Assembly (NCBI RefSeq): GCF_900094555.1
Contig: NZ_FMAC01000008.1
Location: forward strand, 213,485 to 277,484
From: Martinezella hainanensis
Lineage (GTDB): Bacteria; Pseudomonadota; Alphaproteobacteria; Rhizobiales; Rhizobiaceae
Reading direction: 5' to 3'
DNA length: 64,000 bases
Shown here: positions 49,580-61,846 of the stretch, piece after piece
How the letters are laid out: the number at the start of each line of letters is the position of its first letter
How positions within the stretch are numbered: position 1 is the stretch's first letter
Program-made: the position numbers and the translations under genes
The notes under the pieces: generated by a model
Told to the model about the DNA's origin: nothing
Databases searched by the model: none
Seen by the model: only the letters and a program-made list of their open reading frames with translations

Positions 49580-49689
49580 CCCGCAAAGCCCACCGTGTTT
49601 CGTCGAAGTACTGGACCCGCGCAAACACAGAGTTGCGCGGCGGCTGAACTCGCTCCAAAATTCAATCCTATGCCGCCTATCGAGGTGTT

Positions 49690-49714
49690 CGCCATTTGGG
49701 ATATCCCATTGGCG
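49690..49714 (+). promoter_or_regulatory. operator-like inverted repeat upstream of the putative ergothioneine operon
   Basis: An imperfect dyad: arms CGCCA and TGGCG flank a self-complementary centre GGGATATCCC. It lies about 40 bases before the first start codon of the operon, where a repressor or activator would bind. No regulator gene is adjacent, so the binding protein is unknown. Confidence 0.4.
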
Positions 49715-49755
49715 ATAAGGCTCGCATAGCCTTGCGAAAAAGGAGAACAAAAGAC

Positions 49756-51339
49756 ATGGAGCGTCAGAGAGCCGGCATCGAACTCACCGGGCAACCCCTT
49801 GGGTTCAGCGACCTGGTGCGGATCGGGGCGGGTGTCGCCCTGCCCTCGGCATCGGAAACCGGCATGGCGCGGGTGCGGCTGGCGCGCAGCGTTCTTGAAA
49901 GCACGATCCAATCCGGCATGCCCGTCTATGGCTCCACCACCGGCGTCGGCGCCATGAAGGATGTCGAGTGGTCTCCCGAAGATCTCGATGCCTTCAATCT
50001 CGGCCTCGTGCGCGCCCATCACTTCGGCACCGGCGCACCCTTTTCCATGTCGGTCGTCCGCAATGCCATGGCGATCCGGGTCAACACTGCTCTCACCGGC
50101 CAGGTCGGATGCTCGCAGGAACTGATCCAGGCCTATCTGCAGCTTCTCAGCGCCGACGTCATTCCCGTCGTCCGCCGCACCGGTTCGATCGGCTGCGCCG
50201 ATATCGGCCTGATGGGGCAGATCGGCGCAGTTCTGACGGGCGTTGGTGAAGCAGTCTATCGCGGCCGTCGCATGCAGGCGGCCGATGCCTTCGATGCTGC
50301 CGGCATCGCTCCCGTAAGGATGATGCCGCGCGACAGCCTCGCTTCGCTCAGCGTCAATGCCGTCAGCTTTGCCGCCGCTGCCGAGACAACCCGCAATGCC
50401 GCCGCGTCGATCCGCGTCCTGCTTGCGACCGGTATGATGGCGGCCGGCGCGCTCGGCGCTTCGCGCGATCCCTGGATTTCGGTGCGCCATGTCGGCACTG
50501 CCCGCGAAGCTCTGATCGGCGCTTGGCTCTGCAATGCCTCGGACGAATGGCCCTGGCCGGTCGCAACCCATGTGCAGGACCCGCTGAGCCTGCGCATGAT
50601 CGCCCAGGTCTTTGGCGCCGTCATCGAAAACCTGCTCACGGCAGGCCACAAGATCCTCGCCGCCACCGGCCGCTCGGACGACAATCCCGTCATCGTCGAC
50701 GGGCGTGTGATGACCTCGGGTGGCTCCCTTCCGCTGGATGTCACCGTGCTTCTCGAAGCAGCCGTCATCTGCATGGCCCACGCCGCGCGCAACGCCTTCA
50801 ATCGCTGCGTCCTGCTCGGCAATGGCCAGCGTCGCGGCCTGCCGGTCAATCTCGTTCCGGAAGGAAAGATCGCGACCGGCTTCGGCCCGATCATCAAGCT
50901 GGCAGGCGAAATCTTCTCGCGCGTTCTGTCCATGTCCAATCCGGTCTCGGCCCAGTCGCTGGTAGTTGCCGCCGGGATGGAAGACGAGGCTGCCTTCCTG
51001 CCGCTCGTCATCGAGCGTTTCGAGCGGCAGATGCGGGCGCTGAAACGCCTGGCGGCGCTCGAAGCCCTGCTTTCGGCCCAAGCCATGGATATTCTCGGCG
51101 ACAAGCCGGAAGGTGTCGCGCGCATGCTCTACGACGTCGTGCGCAAACATGCGGATTTCTATGTCGTCGACCGTCCCCTTTCGGCCGAAGTCGAGGCGAT
51201 CGAGGAAGAACTGGCCTCAGAGGCGTTCGTTTCGGAATTGATCGCCCATAAGCCCATCATCGCCTATGATGATTTCTTTGCGCTCGGCTCGCTGGAGCGG
51301 GTCGAAGAGCGGCTTTATCACGACACCGTTGCCATCTGA
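49756..51339 (+). CDS. HAL/PAL-fold lyase lacking the MIO triad, probable ergothionase
   Basis: A 527-residue member of the aromatic amino acid lyase superfamily, with the conserved catalytic tyrosine (YGSTTGVG, Y58) and the QDPLSLR segment. At the place where histidine ammonia-lyases have GSxGASGD, with Ala-Ser-Gly forming the MIO electrophile, this protein has GSIGCADIG (C147, A148, D149), so MIO cannot form. Ergothionase, which eliminates trimethylamine from ergothioneine to give thiourocanate, is a known MIO-independent relative. Neighbouring genes supply the later steps. AGGAG precedes the chosen ATG. It is the first gene of the operon. Assignment is by context and family knowledge, not direct proof. 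Confidence 0.78.
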   Translation: MERQRAGIELTGQPLGFSDLVRIGAGVALPSASETGMARVRLARSVLESTIQSGMPVYGSTTGVGAMKDVEWSPEDLDAFNLGLVRAHHFGTGAPFSMSVVRNAMAIRVNTALTGQVGCSQELIQAYLQLLSADVIPVVRRTGSIGCADIGLMGQIGAVLTGVGEAVYRGRRMQAADAFDAAGIAPVRMMPRDSLASLSVNAVSFAAAAETTRNAAASIRVLLATGMMAAGALGASRDPWISVRHVGTAREALIGAWLCNASDEWPWPVATHVQDPLSLRMIAQVFGAVIENLLTAGHKILAATGRSDDNPVIVDGRVMTSGGSLPLDVTVLLEAAVICMAHAARNAFNRCVLLGNGQRRGLPVNLVPEGKIATGFGPIIKLAGEIFSRVLSMSNPVSAQSLVVAAGMEDEAAFLPLVIERFERQMRALKRLAALEALLSAQAMDILGDKPEGVARMLYDVVRKHADFYVVDRPLSAEVEAIEEELASEAFVSELIAHKPIIAYDDFFALGSLERVEERLYHDTVAI

Positions 51340-51379
51340 ACCAACCGACTGAACCAACCGACCGGCGGAGAGAATGCAC

Positions 51380-52765
51380 ATGGCCGATTTCGATCTAGTT
51401 CTGCAAGGCACCGTGGTTTTGCCTGGACGCATCGTGGAAGCCGGCTATGTCGCCGTCAGCGACGGCAAGATCGCCGAGGTGGGCATCGGCGTGCCGCCGG
51501 CTGCCCGCGAGCGGCATCTACTCGGCAAGGCGCTGATCCTGCCTGGCGCGATCGACGCGCAAACCCACTCCCTGTCCCAGAAGGATCAGGAGGATTTCAT
51601 CTGGTCAACGCGTTCGGCAGCCGCTGGCGGCGTCACCACCATCGTCGATATGCCCTATGACGAAGGCAATCTCGTCTGCTCGGCAGCATCGGTGAAGAAG
51701 AAGATCGATCATGCCGCGCCGCAATCGCGCGTCGACTTCGCCCTCTATGGCACGATCGACCCGGAAGAAGGCCCGGCGCGTATCGCCGAGATGGTCGAGG
51801 CCGGTGTCGCCGCCTTCAAATTCTCCACCTTCGGCACGGATCCGAAACGCTTTCCGCGCATTCCGCCCGCCCTGCTCGATGCCTGCTTTGCCGCGATCGC
51901 GTCAACGGGCCTGACCGCCGGCGTCCACAACGAGGATGACGAAGCGGTGCGCGCCTATATGGAGCAGGTCAAGGCAAGCGGTGTTACCGACTACCGCGCC
52001 CACGGCCTTTCCCGCCCACCAATTACCGAGCTTCTCGCCATGCATACGATCTTCGAGACGGGTGCAGATACCGGCTGCCCGGCGCATGTCGTGCATTGCT
52101 CGCTCGGCCGCGGCTACGACATCGCCCGCGCCTATCGCCGCGACGGCTTCGAAGCGACAGTCGAATGCTGCATCCATTACCTGACGCTCGACGAAGAAAA
52201 CGATGTGCGGCGTCTCGGCGGCAAGGCGAAAATCAATCCGCCCATCCGCCCGCGCGCCGAAGTGGAAACCTTGTGGCGCAAAGTGGCGGAGGGCAATGTC
52301 TGGCTCGTCTCGACCGACCACGTCAGCTGGTCGGAAAACCGCAAGACCAATCCGGACATGCTGGCGAACGCTTCCGGCGTGCCGGGACTGGAGGTCATGG
52401 TGCCGCTCTTCGTCAAGGGAGCTCTGCAACGCGGCGTGCCGCTTACCTGGGCCGCGAAGCTGATGGCGGAGAACCCGGCCAGGCATTTCCGCCTCGACCA
52501 CGTCAAGGGCGCGCTGACGCCGGGCAAGGATGCCGACATCGTCGTGCTGGAGCCACGCGAAATGGTTTATGACGCAGCGGCAAGCGGCAACAACGTCGTC
52601 GGCTGGAGCCCCTATAACGGTATCCGCCTGCCCTGGACTGTGTCCGCCGCCTATCTTAGAGGCAAGCAGATTACCGAGGGACAGAAGGTGCTGGCCGAAC
52701 CCGGCTCCGGCAGCTTTGTCCGTCCCTTGCCTCGCCAAATTCTTGCCGGAGATGCAGCCCGATGA
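51380..52765 (+). CDS. hydantoinase/dihydropyrimidinase-type amidohydrolase
   Basis: A 461-residue cyclic-amidase of the amidohydrolase superfamily. Metal-site residues visible are H63, the carboxylatable lysine K147 (AAFKFSTFG), H183, H239 and D313 (STDHVSW), plus INPPIR, as in dihydroorotase, allantoinase and hydantoinase. The first histidine of the usual DxHxH pair is glutamine here (DAQTH, Q61). In this operon the expected job is opening hydantoin-5-propionate to N-carbamoyl-glutamate. Allantoinase is the main alternative. The downstream ATG was chosen for its better GGAG spacing. Its TGA overlaps the next ATG by four bases. Confidence 0.85.
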   Translation: MADFDLVLQGTVVLPGRIVEAGYVAVSDGKIAEVGIGVPPAARERHLLGKALILPGAIDAQTHSLSQKDQEDFIWSTRSAAAGGVTTIVDMPYDEGNLVCSAASVKKKIDHAAPQSRVDFALYGTIDPEEGPARIAEMVEAGVAAFKFSTFGTDPKRFPRIPPALLDACFAAIASTGLTAGVHNEDDEAVRAYMEQVKASGVTDYRAHGLSRPPITELLAMHTIFETGADTGCPAHVVHCSLGRGYDIARAYRRDGFEATVECCIHYLTLDEENDVRRLGGKAKINPPIRPRAEVETLWRKVAEGNVWLVSTDHVSWSENRKTNPDMLANASGVPGLEVMVPLFVKGALQRGVPLTWAAKLMAENPARHFRLDHVKGALTPGKDADIVVLEPREMVYDAAASGNNVVGWSPYNGIRLPWTVSAAYLRGKQITEGQKVLAEPGSGSFVRPLPRQILAGDAAR

Positions 52766-54036
52766 CCGACCCCAAGCGCCACAACCTGCCCGTCAACGCC
52801 GATCGTATCGCCGAGGATATCGATGCGCTCGCCGGCATCACCGATCCGGGCCATCCCTGGACGCGTCGCGCCTTCTCCCCGCTTTTCCTTGAAGGGCGCG
52901 CCTATATCGACGCGCGGATGAAGGCGGCGGGGCTTGAGACCCGGATCGATGCCGCCGGCAATCTGATCGGCCGGCGCGCAGGCGCCAAGCCGGGCCTCGG
53001 CACGATCCTTGTCGGCTCGCATTCCGACACCGTTCCCGATGGCGGCCGCTTCGACGGCATTGCCGGCACGATCGCGGCACTTGAAGTCGCGCGCTCCTTG
53101 AAGGATCGCGGCATCGAACTCGACCACGATCTGGAGATCGTCGATTTCCTGGCTGAGGAAGTCAGCATCTTCGGCGTCTCCTGCATCGGCAGCCGCGGCA
53201 TGACCGGACAGATTCCCGAGGCGTGGCTTTCCCGCATGAGCGGCGACCGCACGCTGTCGCAGGGCATTGCCGAAGTCGGCGGCGATCCTTCGGTGCTGCT
53301 CTCCCAGAAGCGCCCGGATCTCGCCGGTTTTCTGGAGCTGCATATCGAGCAGGGTCCGGTGCTGGAAGCCGAGAACAAGGATATCGGCATCGTCACCGCG
53401 ATCGCCGGCATCACCCGCATCGAAATCACCGTGGAAGGTCGCGCAGATCACGCCGGCACGACGCCGATGGATCGCCGCGCGGATGCGCTGGTAGCGGCCT
53501 CGCGATTGGTCCTTGACATTCGCCAACGCGCCGCCGAACAGGCAAAGACGCCGGGCCATTTCGCCGCGACCGTCGGCGAATTCCGCATCGAGCCGAATGC
53601 CGCCAATGTCGTACCCTCGAAGGTCGTTCTGCTGATCGACGGCCGTGCCGAAATCCGCGGCGACATGGAGGATTTCCTCACCTGGATCGACGGCGAGGTG
53701 AAGACCATTGCCGCCGATTACGGCGTGACGATCAATACGCCGGTGCGCGTCTCCGACAACATGCCGACGCCGGGCGCGCCGGTGCTGCTCGAAACGCTCG
53801 AGCGCGCCTGCGAGACGGTCGGCGCCAAGCATCGCCGCATGGCCTCCGGCGCCGGCCATGACACGGCCTGGATCGCCAAGGTCGCCCCTGCCGCCATGAT
53901 CTTCGTGCCCTGCAAGGAAGGCCGCAGCCACTGCGCCGAGGAGTGGGCCGAGAATGACGACATCGCCATGGGTGCCGCCGTGCTCTTCGAAGCGGTGCGC
54001 GACATGGACAAGAACCTCAAACAGAACCGGGAGTAG
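52762..54036 (+). CDS. M20-family N-carbamoyl-L-amino acid / allantoate amidohydrolase
   Basis: A 424-residue zinc hydrolase of the hydantoinase/carbamoylase (HyuC/AllC) group. The di-metal ligands are present: H87 and D89-region (GSHSDTVPDGG), D98, E132-E133 (AEEVSIFG), H194 (LHIEQGP) and H390 (EGRSHCAEEW). The dimerisation domain carries GRADHAGTTPMDRR. It would remove the carbamoyl group from N-carbamoyl-glutamate, giving glutamate, CO2 and ammonia. Allantoate amidohydrolase and ureidopropionase belong to the same family and cannot be excluded from sequence alone. It is coupled by a four-base overlap to the amidohydrolase. Confidence 0.87.
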   Translation: MTDPKRHNLPVNADRIAEDIDALAGITDPGHPWTRRAFSPLFLEGRAYIDARMKAAGLETRIDAAGNLIGRRAGAKPGLGTILVGSHSDTVPDGGRFDGIAGTIAALEVARSLKDRGIELDHDLEIVDFLAEEVSIFGVSCIGSRGMTGQIPEAWLSRMSGDRTLSQGIAEVGGDPSVLLSQKRPDLAGFLELHIEQGPVLEAENKDIGIVTAIAGITRIEITVEGRADHAGTTPMDRRADALVAASRLVLDIRQRAAEQAKTPGHFAATVGEFRIEPNAANVVPSKVVLLIDGRAEIRGDMEDFLTWIDGEVKTIAADYGVTINTPVRVSDNMPTPGAPVLLETLERACETVGAKHRRMASGAGHDTAWIAKVAPAAMIFVPCKEGRSHCAEEWAENDDIAMGAAVLFEAVRDMDKNLKQNRE

Positions 54037-54039
54037 CCA

Positions 54040-55140
54040 ATGGGACGCGTACTCGTTGCCAAGGATGTGGAAGCGGCCGTCAAGGGTGGCTCCGTTTATG
54101 CCGCCGGCGGCGGCGGCTGGGCCGATCACGGCCGCATGCTCGGCTATGCGGCCGTCAATGTCGGCAAGCCGGAGCTGGTGTCGATCGACGAATTGAACGA
54201 CAACGACTGGATCGCGACGGCCGCCGCCATCGGCGCACCGGCCTCCACGACCCCCTGGGAAATGCAGGGCATCGATTACGTGAAGGCCGCCCAGCTGCTG
54301 CAGGACGAGCTTGGCGAGAAGCTTTCCGGCCTGATCATCGGCCAGAACGGCAAGTCCTCGACGCTGAACGGCTGGCTGCCATCGGCCATTCTCGGAACCA
54401 AGGTGGTGGACGCGGTGGGTGACATCCGCGCCCATCCCACCGGCGACATGGGCTCGATCGGCATGGCGGGTTCGCCCGAGCAGATGATCCAGACCGCCGT
54501 GGGCGGCAACCGCGCCGAGAATCGCTATATCGAGCTGGTCGTGAAGGGTGCGACGGCGAAGATTTCGCCGATCCTGCGCGCGGCCTCCGACCAGTCGGGC
54601 GGCTTCATCGCCTCCTGCCGCAACCCCTTGCGCGCTTCTTACGTCCGCACGCACGCGGCGCTCGGCGGCATTTCCATGGCGCTTTCGCTCGGCGAAGCGA
54701 TCATCGAGGCGGAAAAGAAGGGCGGCAGTGCCGTCATCGACGCCATCTGCAAGACCACCGGCGGCCATATCCTGGCTGAAGGCATGATCACCAAGAAGGA
54801 CGTCGTCTACACGAAGGAAGCCTTCGATATCGGCACAGTCACTGTAGGCTCAGGCGACAAGGCCGTCGTCATGCACGTGATGAACGAGTACATGGCCGTC
54901 GAGGATACCGGCGGCAAGCGGCTCGCGACCTTCCCCTCCGTCATCACAACGCTGTCGCCGGAAGGCGAGCCCTTGAGCGTCGGCCAACTGCACGAAGGCA
55001 TGAAGGTTTTCATCCTGCATGTGCCGATGGATATCATTCCGCTCTCTGCCAGCGTGCTCGACCCCACGGTCTACCCCTCCGTCGAAAAGGCGATGGGCAT
55101 CGAGATCGCCAAATACGCGCTGGCCGGCAAGAAAGGCTGA
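54040..55140 (+). CDS. DUF917 / S-methyl-thiohydantoin desulfurase-family protein
   Basis: A 366-residue protein with the glycine-rich N-terminal SVYAAGGGGWADHGRML and TGDMGSIGMAG segments that mark DUF917, now split in databases into S-Me-THD N- and C-terminal domains after an enzyme that removes methanethiol from S-methyl-thiohydantoins. A related activity, desulfhydration of thioxo-imidazolidine propionate, is required in ergothioneine breakdown. It begins three bases after the preceding stop, so it belongs to the same transcript. No signal peptide. The role in sulfur removal is inferred from family naming and context; older annotations call such proteins hydantoinase-like. Confidence 0.8.
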   Translation: MGRVLVAKDVEAAVKGGSVYAAGGGGWADHGRMLGYAAVNVGKPELVSIDELNDNDWIATAAAIGAPASTTPWEMQGIDYVKAAQLLQDELGEKLSGLIIGQNGKSSTLNGWLPSAILGTKVVDAVGDIRAHPTGDMGSIGMAGSPEQMIQTAVGGNRAENRYIELVVKGATAKISPILRAASDQSGGFIASCRNPLRASYVRTHAALGGISMALSLGEAIIEAEKKGGSAVIDAICKTTGGHILAEGMITKKDVVYTKEAFDIGTVTVGSGDKAVVMHVMNEYMAVEDTGGKRLATFPSVITTLSPEGEPLSVGQLHEGMKVFILHVPMDIIPLSASVLDPTVYPSVEKAMGIEIAKYALAGKKG

Positions 55141-55158
55141 AAAACGCAGGAGGCTTGA

Positions 55159-55488
55159 ATGGCCCGTGATGCTGGTCTCGAGGAATTGCTGAGAGAGGAA
55201 CTCGGGGAACGACCCGGGCTCAGCGGGAAAGCGATGTTCGGCGGCTGGGCCTTTCTGCTCAACGGTCATCTCCTATGCGGCGCCCGTGACGACGGGATGC
55301 TGATCCGCCTTGGCAAGGGCAACGATGCCTGGGCGCTGGAGCAGCATGACGTCAAAACCATGTTGATGGGCGGCCGCGAGATGAAGGGGTGGCTGCGCGC
55401 CGGGCCGGAAGCCTATGGCAACGACATGCTGCGCAAGCGGCTGCTTCTGGCCGCGCTGGACTTCGTCGAAGGCCTGCCGCCGAAATAG
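55159..55488 (+). CDS. TfoX/Sxy N-terminal-domain protein
   Basis: A 109-residue protein with the TfoX N-domain pattern (GLSGKAMFGGWAFLLNGHLLCGARDDGMLIRLG). Full-length TfoX/Sxy is a competence regulator, but short single-domain members are common in alphaproteobacteria and have no known function. AGGAGG-like sequence (GCAGGAGGCTTG) precedes the ATG. It lies 18 bases after the DUF917 gene and 42 bases before the urocanate-hydratase homologue, all on one strand, so it seems part of the operon, though no catalytic role is evident. Confidence 0.85.
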   Translation: MARDAGLEELLREELGERPGLSGKAMFGGWAFLLNGHLLCGARDDGMLIRLGKGNDAWALEQHDVKTMLMGGREMKGWLRAGPEAYGNDMLRKRLLLAALDFVEGLPPK

Positions 55489-55530
55489 CCGGGCCACCGA
55501 AACAACAAAGAAAATAGGGAAGGGAAATCC

Positions 55531-57192
55531 ATGCCGAAAGCCAATCCACGTCACCCGAAATTCCCCATTCCGGGCGGCCCGGAGCTGCGTGCCAAGGGTT
55601 GGCGGCAGGAGGCCCTGCTGCGCCTGCTCGAAAACGTGCTCTCGGTCGGCGAAGATCCCGACAACCTTGTCGTCTACGCAGCCCTCGGCAAGGCTGCCCG
55701 CAATTGGGCGGCGCATAAGGGCATCGTCAAGGCGCTGACCGAGATGGATGAGAACCAGACCCTGCTCATCCAATCCGGCAAGCCGATCGGCCTCATCCGC
55801 ACGCATGACAAGGCACCGCTCGTCATCATGGCGAACTGCAACATCGTCGGGCAATGGGCAAAGGCCGAGGTGTTCTACGAACTACAGCGCAAGGGCTTGA
55901 TCTGCTGGGGCGGCCTGACGGCCGGCGCCTGGCAATATATCGGCAGCCAGGGCGTGATCCAGGGCACCTACGAAATCTTCATGCGCATCGCCGAGCGCCG
56001 CTTCGGCGGTGATCTCTTCGGCCGTTTCGTGCTGACCGCCGGGCTCGGCGGCATGGGCGGCGCGCAGCCGCTCGCCGGCCGTATGGCGGGTGCCGCGATC
56101 CTCTGCGTCGACATCGACGCGGAGCGCGCGAGGAAGCGCCAGGAAATCGGCTATCTACAGGAAATCGCCCCGGACCTCGATTCCGCTCTGGCGATGATCG
56201 ATGCTGCCGTCAAGGAAAAGCGGGCGCTTTCCGTCGGCCTCGTCGGCAATGCGGCCGAGATCTATCCCGAGATTGCGCGGCGCGGCATCGTGCCCGATAT
56301 CGTCACCGACCAGACCTCGGCCCACGATCTCGTCTATGGCTACGTGCCGAAGGGCATGAGCCTCAGCCAAGTCAAGGATCTCCGCGACGACGGTCAGGGC
56401 CAGCTGATGGCCGCAAGCCGCGCCTCGATCGTCGAGCACGTGAAGGCCATGCTGGATTTCCAGAAAAAGGGTTCCGAAGTCTTCGACAACGGCAACCTGA
56501 TCCGCACCCAGGCGAAGGAAGGCGGTGTTGCCAACGCCTTCGATATCCCGATCTTCACCGAAGCCTATCTGCGGCCGCTCTTCTGCCGCGCCATCGGCCC
56601 GTTCCGCTGGATGGCGCTTTCCGGCGAGGAGAGCGACATCGCCCGCATCGACGATCTGCTTCTGGAAATGTTCCCGGACAACAAGATCATCACCAACTGG
56701 ATCAAGCTTGCCCGTGAGCACGTGCCCTTCGAAGGTCTGCCGGCCCGTATTGCCTGGCTCGGCCATGGCGAGCGCACCGCACTTGCCCGCCGTGTCAACG
56801 AACTTGTCGCAAGCGGCGAGCTCAAAGGTCCGATCGCGTTTTCACGCGACCACCTCGATGCCGGCGCCATGGCACATCCGAACATCATGACAGAGGGCAT
56901 GAAGGATGGCTCCGACGCTATCGCCGACTGGCCGCTGATCGACGCCATGATGCTCTGCTCGTCCATGGCTGATCTCGTCGTCGTCCATTCCGGTGGCGGC
57001 GGCTATGCCGGCTATATGACGAGCTGCGGCGTCACCGTGGTCGCCGACGGCACGACCGCCGCCGACGAACGGCTCGATCACGCGCTGACCAACGACACAG
57101 CGCTCGGCGTGATGCGCTACGCCGATGCCGGCTATGAGGAAGCGCTGGACGAAGTTGCGAAAAAGGATGTGCCCTATATCCGTTTGGGATAA
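55531..57192 (+). CDS. urocanate hydratase homologue, probable thiourocanate hydratase
   Basis: A 553-residue member of the urocanase family, which uses tightly bound NAD+ as an electrophile. The nucleotide-binding GLGGMGGAQPLAGRM lies at 171-185, preceded by TAGAWQYIGSQGVIQGTYE, and DQTSAHDLVYGYVPKGMSL follows. Canonical HutU, as I recall it, has MYGQMTAGSW where this protein has CWGGLTAGAW. No hutH, hutI or hutG is present, and the operon lacks a MIO-type HutH, so hydration of thiourocanate rather than urocanate is the better inference. GGAAGGGAA precedes the ATG. Confidence 0.85.
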   Translation: MPKANPRHPKFPIPGGPELRAKGWRQEALLRLLENVLSVGEDPDNLVVYAALGKAARNWAAHKGIVKALTEMDENQTLLIQSGKPIGLIRTHDKAPLVIMANCNIVGQWAKAEVFYELQRKGLICWGGLTAGAWQYIGSQGVIQGTYEIFMRIAERRFGGDLFGRFVLTAGLGGMGGAQPLAGRMAGAAILCVDIDAERARKRQEIGYLQEIAPDLDSALAMIDAAVKEKRALSVGLVGNAAEIYPEIARRGIVPDIVTDQTSAHDLVYGYVPKGMSLSQVKDLRDDGQGQLMAASRASIVEHVKAMLDFQKKGSEVFDNGNLIRTQAKEGGVANAFDIPIFTEAYLRPLFCRAIGPFRWMALSGEESDIARIDDLLLEMFPDNKIITNWIKLAREHVPFEGLPARIAWLGHGERTALARRVNELVASGELKGPIAFSRDHLDAGAMAHPNIMTEGMKDGSDAIADWPLIDAMMLCSSMADLVVVHSGGGGYAGYMTSCGVTVVADGTTAADERLDHALTNDTALGVMRYADAGYEEALDEVAKKDVPYIRLG

Positions 57193-57993: not shown

Positions 57994-58058
57994 CGCCTGG
58001 AATTGAAATCGCCGCGCCGTTGCTATATATCAATGTCATATCTCAAAGGAGTTATGGC

Positions 58059-58301
58059 ATGGACACCGCAAAAATCTTCTGGTCCGGCCGCTCGCAGGCC
58101 GTACGCTTGCCGAAGGAATTCCGTATCGACGGCGAAGAAGTGCGCATCCGCCGGCAGGGGAAATCAATCATTCTGGAGCCGATCGCGGAAGATTGGGATT
58201 GGCTGGAAGCGATCACTGGGCCGGTCGATCAAGACTTCGTGGAAGCGACCGAGGAAGAGCCGGCTGAGCAGCAGCGCCCCGAGTTGGATATTTTCAAGTG
58301 A
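58059..58301 (+). CDS. vapB: VapB-type antitoxin
   Basis: An 80-residue AbrB/SpoVT-fold antitoxin (TAKIFWSGRSQAVRLPKEF then VRIRRQGKSIILEP) with a C-terminal acidic tail that would wrap the toxin (EATEEEPAEQQRPELDIFK). GGAG lies seven bases before the ATG. Its TGA overlaps the toxin GTG start (GTGA), typical of type II toxin-antitoxin pairs. It would repress its own promoter. Confidence 0.9.
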   Translation: MDTAKIFWSGRSQAVRLPKEFRIDGEEVRIRRQGKSIILEPIAEDWDWLEAITGPVDQDFVEATEEEPAEQQRPELDIFK

Positions 58302-58702
58302 AGTATCTGCTCGACAGCAATGCCGTCATCGCCTTGATGAAGGGACACTCCGGCTTCATGAGTGAACTTCGCAGACACAAGCCACAGGACTTTGCCATTC
58401 CGGCCATCGTTGCGCACGAACTGTTCTATGGCGCTTACAAAGGCCAGCGTGTTGCCGAGAACCTTGCGCGTGTGGAAGCTCTTCAGTTCGAGACGCTGGA
58501 TTTCGACAAGGAAGATGCCCGTGTGGCCGGTGAAATTCGCGCTGCCCTTGCTTTCCTTGGCACACCGATCGGCGCCTATGACGTTCTGATCGCAGGCCAG
58601 GCAATCGCCCGCGATCTGATCCTCGTGACGCACAATGTCAGGGAATTTCAGCGCATTCGACAGCTGCGTTTCGAGGACTGGGAGTCCTTGCCGAGCGGCT
58701 AG
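58298..58702 (+). CDS. vapC: VapC-family PIN-domain ribonuclease toxin
   Basis: A 134-residue PIN endoribonuclease with the acidic active site D6, E41, D95 and the conserved N113. VapC enzymes cut specific RNAs, often initiator tRNA, unless bound by VapB. The start is a GTG overlapping the vapB stop. All active-site residues are intact, so the toxin should be functional. The TAG stop is the first part of a dispersed repeat (TAGAGCATTTCC), suggesting the repeat arrived at, or trimmed, the 3' end. Confidence 0.92.
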   Translation: MKYLLDSNAVIALMKGHSGFMSELRRHKPQDFAIPAIVAHELFYGAYKGQRVAENLARVEALQFETLDFDKEDARVAGEIRAALAFLGTPIGAYDVLIAGQAIARDLILVTHNVREFQRIRQLRFEDWESLPSG

Positions 58703-60109: not shown

Positions 60110-61794
<1,685 letters not shown>

Positions 61795-61846
61795 GGGGGC
61801 ACCCAACCTTTCTTGCCCCGGAATCTAGTCAGGTCCGCTTCATTAG

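Follow-up and report, generated by a model that had tools for sequence, protein, structure and literature searches.

A six-gene operon lies at 49756-57192 of the 64-kb window of the Martinezella hainanensis genome analysed here (genome of 7.25 Mb in 31 contigs; coordinates are positions in the window unless a contig is named). This operon (the ert operon) very likely encodes a complete five-step pathway of ergothioneine degradation, under the predicted control in trans of a LysR-type regulator and with a candidate importer at a distant locus. The ergothioneine pathway itself is already known, and our analysis adds a divergent clade of the first enzyme, the lyase, a near-core distribution of the operon in Rhizobium and a regulatory link between two sites. 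Gene content, family membership, active-site residues, the operator and the joint presence or absence of the LysR gene and the operon marker were observed directly.

In the proposed route, the lyase would convert ergothioneine to thiourocanate and trimethylamine, the hydratase thiourocanate to thiohydantoin propionate, and the desulfurase thiohydantoin propionate to hydantoin propionate and H2S. ErtD would produce N-carbamoyl-glutamate from hydantoin propionate, and ErtE would convert it to glutamate, NH3 and CO2. Rhizobium may thus scavenge external ergothioneine through the operon, and a LysR protein with a tandem helix-turn-helix (HTH), encoded 122 kb away, would act on an operator at 49685-49707. 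Every enzyme activity, the LysR binding, the inducer and the uptake are predictions from sequence.

Candidate genes for all pathway steps

Six consecutive open reading frames (ORFs) are located on the plus strand with intergenic gaps of 34, -4, 3, 18 and 42 bp. All six products matched a Pfam family above its gathering score, namely Lyase_aromatic, Amidohydro_1, Peptidase_M20, S-Me-THD (DUF917), TfoX_N and Urocanase. The first-pass annotation of this DNA had described this run, with gaps of -4 to 42, and one candidate gene for each step, and both points were borne out: four enzymes passed the cut-offs of NCBIfam equivalog models and the lyase, which passed none, has residues of the ergothionase type.

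The predicted hydantoin-5-propionate amidohydrolase ErtD (51374-52765) scored 781.5 bits with NF058538 (cut-off 600), and the predicted N-carbamoyl-L-glutamate amidohydrolase ErtE of the M20 family (52762-54036) scored 631.5 bits with NF058540 (cut-off 520). The scores were 603.3 bits with NF058529 (cut-off 440) for the predicted thiohydantoin desulfurase of the DUF917/S-Me-THD fold (54040-55140), and 1063.9 bits with NF058530 (cut-off 930) for the predicted thiourocanate hydratase, a urocanase homologue (55531-57192). The best match of the hydratase in the PDB was 7ned, which we take to be the Paenibacillus thiourocanate hydratase. ErtE scored even higher with NF009531, an unnamed Zn-dependent hydrolase (806.6 versus a cut-off of 486), and the hydratase also passed the hutU model (701.5 versus 375), so that the names of these two proteins are taken from the more specific models.

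Homologous operons were compared in 80 named loci, the best 80 of 450 confirmed ones. ErtD, ErtE, desulfurase and hydratase were present in all 80 loci and the lyase in 78; the other two loci (L150 and L162) are cut there by contig ends. With all five enzyme genes side by side in 78 of the 80 loci, their association is not due to chance. Most of these loci are from Rhizobium, R. miluonense, R. lusitanum and R. tropici being among the first matches, which places the genome analysed here in Rhizobium. Between the desulfurase and hydratase genes stands an accessory gene for a TfoX_N-domain protein (55159-55488; PF04993, 32.2 bits versus 30.1). It was found in 70 of the 80 named loci and in 15 of the 42 ert loci of a second set (39 from the family sample and three from plasmids), and is an optional part of the operon.

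The lyase gene (49756-51339) most likely starts at the ATG at 49756. This ATG is preceded by AAGGAG, and most of the relatives sampled have an ATG at the equivalent position. It fits better than the start at 49690 in the first-pass annotation or the TTG at 49696 in the ORF list, and the stretch around 49690 is probably a conserved non-coding block.

Active-site residues and phylogeny of the lyase

The lyase has the fold of histidine ammonia-lyase (HAL; Lyase_aromatic, 275.8 bits), and its best PDB match was the Treponema denticola ergothionase (6s7j/6s7q, E value 6.6e-46). In BLAST, it was 27.5% identical to the Treponema ergothionase (180 bits), 27% to the lyase L037 (139 bits) and 26.0% to a Pseudomonas HAL (131 bits). 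We infer that it acts as an ergothionase, one only distantly related to those that have been characterised.

Alignments showed that the Ala-Ser-Gly triad that forms the 4-methylideneimidazole-5-one (MIO) group is gone in the lyase, which has GSIGCA-DI versus GSVGASGDL in HAL. The lyase shares K68 and D69 (in the motif GVGxxKD), N201, L277, D308 and K381 with the Treponema ergothionase, and the four HAL rows have other residues at these positions; Tyr58 and Glu409 also occur in HALs. Y58, K68, K381 and E409 align with Y53, K63, K383 and E411 of the Treponema enzyme (numbering of the matched PDB chain), which are reportedly its essential residues. Both the Treponema enzyme and L082, the lyase of a Burkholderia locus, lack the MIO triad and have the equivalents of Y58, K68, K381, E409, N201, D308 and L277. 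In contrast, Treponema, L037, L081 and L082 have a Glu where the SIGCAD loop of the window lyase has Cys, and the window lyase has a longer C-terminus than these types.

K68 was conserved in all 11 rows of the window type, all 5 rows of type B and Treponema. K381 was present in the same 17 rows with one exception, L085 from Sinorhizobium, a lyase encoded outside ert operons. The distinction is blurred by L246 and L247, which have K381 without K68, and by a Haloarcula lyase, which has K68 without K381.

The window lyase is 52-69% identical to five lyases of its type from other genera, and 25-31% identical to the Burkholderia-type lyases L037, L082 and L005. In an unrooted tree, 17 ergothionase-like rows were separated from 8 others with a split support of 99/97, and the window clade stood on a long stem. 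L173-L177, L179 and L182 (no lyase motifs, long branches) as well as L172, L178 and L180 were left out of this tree, so that L181 was retained from L172-L182. Being unrooted, the tree is compatible with either single or multiple MIO loss. An AlphaFold2 model of the lyase built from 15 sequences was poor (predicted local distance difference test score 55, predicted template modelling score 0.44) and was not used.

Several related lyases were seen besides. L085 (8923-10563 of a Sinorhizobium meliloti plasmid) is a MIO-less lyase annotated as hutH and shares 44% identity with L037, a lyase of type B. The MIO loop is one residue short in L246 and L247, reading GSIGAS-D in Streptomyces and GSIGAG-D in Rhizobium sp., in the latter beside an ornithine cyclodeaminase gene. 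In one genome (G237), a window-type lyase (774 bits; C28:46006-47529) and the ert operon are located on one contig, about 180 kb apart.

Distribution of the operon

The desulfurase above its equivalog cut-off was used as the marker for the presence of the operon. The marker was detected in 131 of 148 Rhizobium genomes, in 40 of the 297 genomes of the family sample (weakest accepted score 577 bits, next best 112) and in 6 of the 398 genomes of the phylum sample, four of these being Rhizobium. The operon of the window follows ubiE- and ubiB-type genes (Ubie_methyltran, ABC1), and ubiE-ubiB is upstream in 74 of the 80 named loci. Among the 42 ert loci of the second set, 32 have a window-type lyase, 4 a type-B lyase and 6 (one at a contig edge) no lyase nearby.

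Transporters were found within about 5 kb of lyase-less ert loci: TRAP transporters in L041, L043, L045, L077 and L078, and amino-acid-type ATP-binding cassette (ABC) transporters in L079, L080, L083 and L183. No hydratase was seen in L083 either. Such loci may serve to scavenge thiourocanate released by other microbes. L183, of genome G576, combines a lyase-less thiourocanate pathway with EgtD, and this organism may make ergothioneine while having no enzyme that destroys it.

EgtD, an enzyme of ergothioneine biosynthesis, was not found in the M. hainanensis genome by model search. The search works, since 80 of the 297 sampled genomes of the order passed with the same model, all of them from other families. 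Rhizobium probably does not make ergothioneine itself. A separate hut-like locus on contig C15 contains a urocanase paralogue and a homologue 55% identical to HAL. Together with the equivalog matches and the lyase residues, these results support the earlier assignment of the operon to ergothioneine catabolism.

A shared operator and a distant tandem-HTH LysR gene

The predicted LysR site GTGTTCGCCATTTGGGATATCCC lies at 49685-49707 on the plus strand, overlaps the 12-bp palindrome TGGGATATCCCA at 49697-49708 and ends 48 bp before the lyase ATG. In the aligned ubiB-lyase gaps of Rhizobium, the block GTGTTCGnCATTTGGGATATCCC is conserved. No LysR gene with tandem HTH_1 was found beside the operon of the window, though the site is there. 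The genome has one clear homologue of the ert-linked LysR proteins (145 bits, next 43), with two HTH_1 stretches. Its gene is located on the minus strand of contig C8 (139918-141198), 122 kb from the operon, and is divergent from genes of an OpuAC-type ABC transporter; the gap between them contains GTGTTCTCGAAAAAAGATATCCC.

The pattern GTGTTC-N9-GATATCCC was written after both sites had been seen, so that its match to these two is by construction. In the whole 7.25-Mb genome there were two exact copies, no third one and five more at one mismatch; the reversed pattern used as control gave 0. Of the 80 named loci, 71 have an exact operator and 75 have one when a single mismatch is allowed, always less than 400 bp upstream of the lyase gene. 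It was missing in L101, L151, L165 and the contig-edge loci L150 and L162.

In most window-type loci outside Rhizobium, a LysR gene is divergent from the first ert gene, and in several loci with ubiB upstream it stands between ubiB and the lyase gene. The LysR proteins of L004, L006 and L046 have two HTH_1 stretches and that of L074 has one only; the other ert-linked LysR genes were assigned by sequence similarity alone. Loci of 16.5-21.5 kb (one of 10.6 kb) were scanned with a matrix whose training set was 11 distinct ert sites, all from Rhizobium. In 34 of the 37 loci outside this genus, the best site of the whole locus fell between the LysR and ert genes; without L151 and L165, which duplicate L048 and L064, the count is 32 of 35. 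The scores vary widely, with low values of 8-15 bits in some loci, and many of these loci are mutual relatives. The misses were L003 (site just upstream of the lyase gene), L046 (site within the predicted start of the LysR gene) and L073. Among eight ert loci without such a LysR gene (L037, L041, L043, L045, L051, L080, L082 and L083), the best scores were 3.0-8.0, and 14.9 for L080.

The transporter locus of Rhizobium was then compared between genomes with and without the marker. The LysR gene and an exact operator were both present in 25 of 25 marker-bearing genomes (our own and 24 of the 130 others, chosen before scanning) and in 0 of 17 marker-less ones, which are all of the marker-less genomes and were examined at this locus only, with just 340 bp upstream in L219. 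On the gene tree of the transporter's binding protein, 3 changes are required to explain the marker-less genomes, and well-supported branches force at least 2 of them; the tree fits gain and loss alike. Because the LysR gene follows the marker and the transporter stays in genomes without the operon, it is the LysR gene, not the transporter, that is tied to the operon. The distant LysR is predicted to control the operon in trans through the operator at 49685-49707. It is fairly probable that both belong to a two-piece regulon, with the operon at ubiE-ubiB and the LysR gene beside an OsmF-type importer, which is linked by this operator pattern and gained or lost together.

A candidate importer

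The transporter divergent from the LysR gene is of the glycine-betaine type (OpuAC type) and occupies C8:141591-145478, with genes for a binding protein (141591-142499), a permease, an ATPase and a second permease-like ORF. The binding protein shares 63-66% identity with the counterpart beside the Ochrobactrum ert operon. Transporters of this type were found inside the ert cluster in L042 and L075, beside it in L154 and L163 (Brucella, closely related to the Ochrobactrum locus), and also beside or inside it in L006; most ert loci have none nearby. The location and the family, which fits a betaine such as ergothioneine, make this ABC transporter the best candidate importer. It resembles the OpuAC-type importers OsmF and EgtUV in its protein families. 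It differs in having a binding protein separate from the permease; this protein is closer to glycine-betaine/OsmF-type binders than to EgtU, and EgtUC structures matched it with E values of 1e-28 to 1e-26.

Co-occurrence with the operon was tried as a test of the importer role and failed, the transporter being present in all 17 marker-less Rhizobium genomes. In the wider family, 20 of the 40 genomes with the marker and 67 of the 257 others contain the binding protein.

The first-pass annotation had seen no transporter gene in the window. It is correct that none adjoins the operon; the window does contain an MFS gene (Pfam MFS_1) at 60511-61806, which shows no sign of connection to the operon. 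Downstream of the operon, genes for a MazE-type antitoxin and a PIN-domain protein form a pair at 58020-58702; of the 80 named loci, 19 and 17, respectively, contain a match. An AbrB/VapC pair stands directly before the lyase gene in L003.

Discussion

A five-step bacterial pathway of ergothioneine catabolism is said to have been described by Beliaeva, Leisinger and Seebeck in 2021. The window agrees with it in that a single operon provides a gene for each step, with four equivalogs and a hydratase with 7ned as the best structure. It differs in the lyase, which forms a separate deep clade, in the extra TfoX-like gene, and in the regulator and candidate importer being elsewhere. The Burkholderia locus compared here is L082, not that of HME13, and carries another lyase type than the window.

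Several observations weigh against our interpretation. For the lyase, percent identity alone cannot tell an ergothionase from a HAL, because the values are 27.5% versus 26.0%. Five genomes retain the lower pathway without an ergothionase-like lyase, and searches of the whole genomes (G156, G068, G152, G049 and G576) gave lyase matches of 251-271 bits only, the level of HutH-like second hits. For the regulator, our LysR is only 31-37% identical to the ert-linked LysR proteins. No operator lies by the transporter in four marker-bearing genomes of other genera (L197-L200), and likewise in marker-less ones of other genera (L202-L204); in the genomes from which L197-L200 come, the LysR gene instead adjoins the ert operon. 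One Rhizobium has a second copy of the transporter (L222), which likewise lacks an operator. For the importer, the binding protein is present in 147 of 148 Rhizobium genomes, including 17 of 17 marker-less ones, and the one genome without it bears the marker. The transporter is not dedicated to ergothioneine, because its binding protein is present without the operon marker too. The closest solved relatives of the binding protein are annotated as glycine-betaine or osmoprotectant binders (5teu, 1e-131; 4wep, 1e-101). Finally, the distant operator is separated from the LysR start by 21 bp but from the transporter by about 350 bp, so that its role may be limited to LysR autoregulation.

It is conceivable, though improbable, that the physiological substrate is ergothioneine sulfonate, an oxidised ergothioneine, instead of ergothioneine. 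The Treponema ergothionase acts on both ergothioneine and its sulfonate, which we count for this possibility. An ergothioneine-sulfonate pathway of Agrobacterium radiobacter is reported (Yan 2022, as cited in PMC13405746). The hydratase and desulfurase exceed the thiourocanate and thiohydantoin equivalog cut-offs, which argues against the sulfonate, indirectly, as the sulfonate enzymes were not among the sequences compared.

We consider it equally unlikely that the distant operator is concerned with LysR autoregulation and the transporter only, the operon being bound by another regulator or read through from ubiB. The nearness to the LysR start agrees with this, and in many Rhizobium only a short gap separates ubiB from the lyase gene. 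However, the LysR gene and operator follow the marker (25/25 versus 0/17) while the transporter stays, in at least two groups, and in the 34 of 37 loci outside Rhizobium this motif stands between the LysR and ert genes.

Degradation of S-methyl-ergothioneine by the operon is very improbable. The same enzyme families are used in S-methyl operons, and an operon of this type exists in a related genus (L084, on pAt of Agrobacterium tumefaciens). L084 differs from the window in its hydratase and desulfurase subfamilies. The window hydratase scored 743.6 with the S-methyl model NF058531 (cut-off 880) and the window desulfurase 283.6 with NF058532 (cut-off 450), both below; in L084 both enzymes were above these cut-offs, the reverse of the window. 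Because the window and L084 give opposite outcomes, these two models discriminate between the ergothioneine and S-methyl types. The ErtD and ErtE models pass in both operons and do not discriminate. The lyase beside L084 (L243), which has a shortened MIO loop, has Cys and Leu at the places of K68 and K381, and thus lacks both lysines. L084 and L243 are also accompanied by a molybdopterin S/N-oxide reductase and a glutathione S-transferase, both extra to the window operon, and by a betaine-type ABC transporter that adjoins the lyase gene. A second hut operon, or a general hydantoin or carbamoyl-amino-acid operon, would share the HAL and urocanase folds and the hydantoinase and carbamoylase families, and is still less credible in view of the missing MIO triad, a hutH score of 201.9 for the lyase (cut-off 539), the separate hut-like locus on C15, the lack of a HutI-type gene among the six by Pfam, and the presence of a desulfurase.

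For the ergothioneine operon with its distant regulator and candidate importer in Rhizobium, no description was found among the titles and abstract beginnings listed, with subscription journals mostly outside this list. A 2026 paper regards ergothionase as restricted to few genera, from a Burkholderia query only, and itself warns of divergent homologues (PMC13405746). The clade of the window lyase is such a divergent group, with the operon marker in 131 of 148 Rhizobium genomes.

Common bean is a host of Rhizobium, and root-nodule bacteria could therefore compete for ergothioneine, an idea that the operator and the regulator make easy to test. Ergothioneine is an antioxidant of fungi and some bacteria which plants and animals obtain from soil and food (PMC7653990), and mycorrhizal treatments reportedly raise its uptake by black beans (PMC10840373). 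If our interpretation is true, this near-core trait would turn legume symbionts into sinks for ergothioneine supplied by mycorrhizal fungi to the roots that both inhabit.

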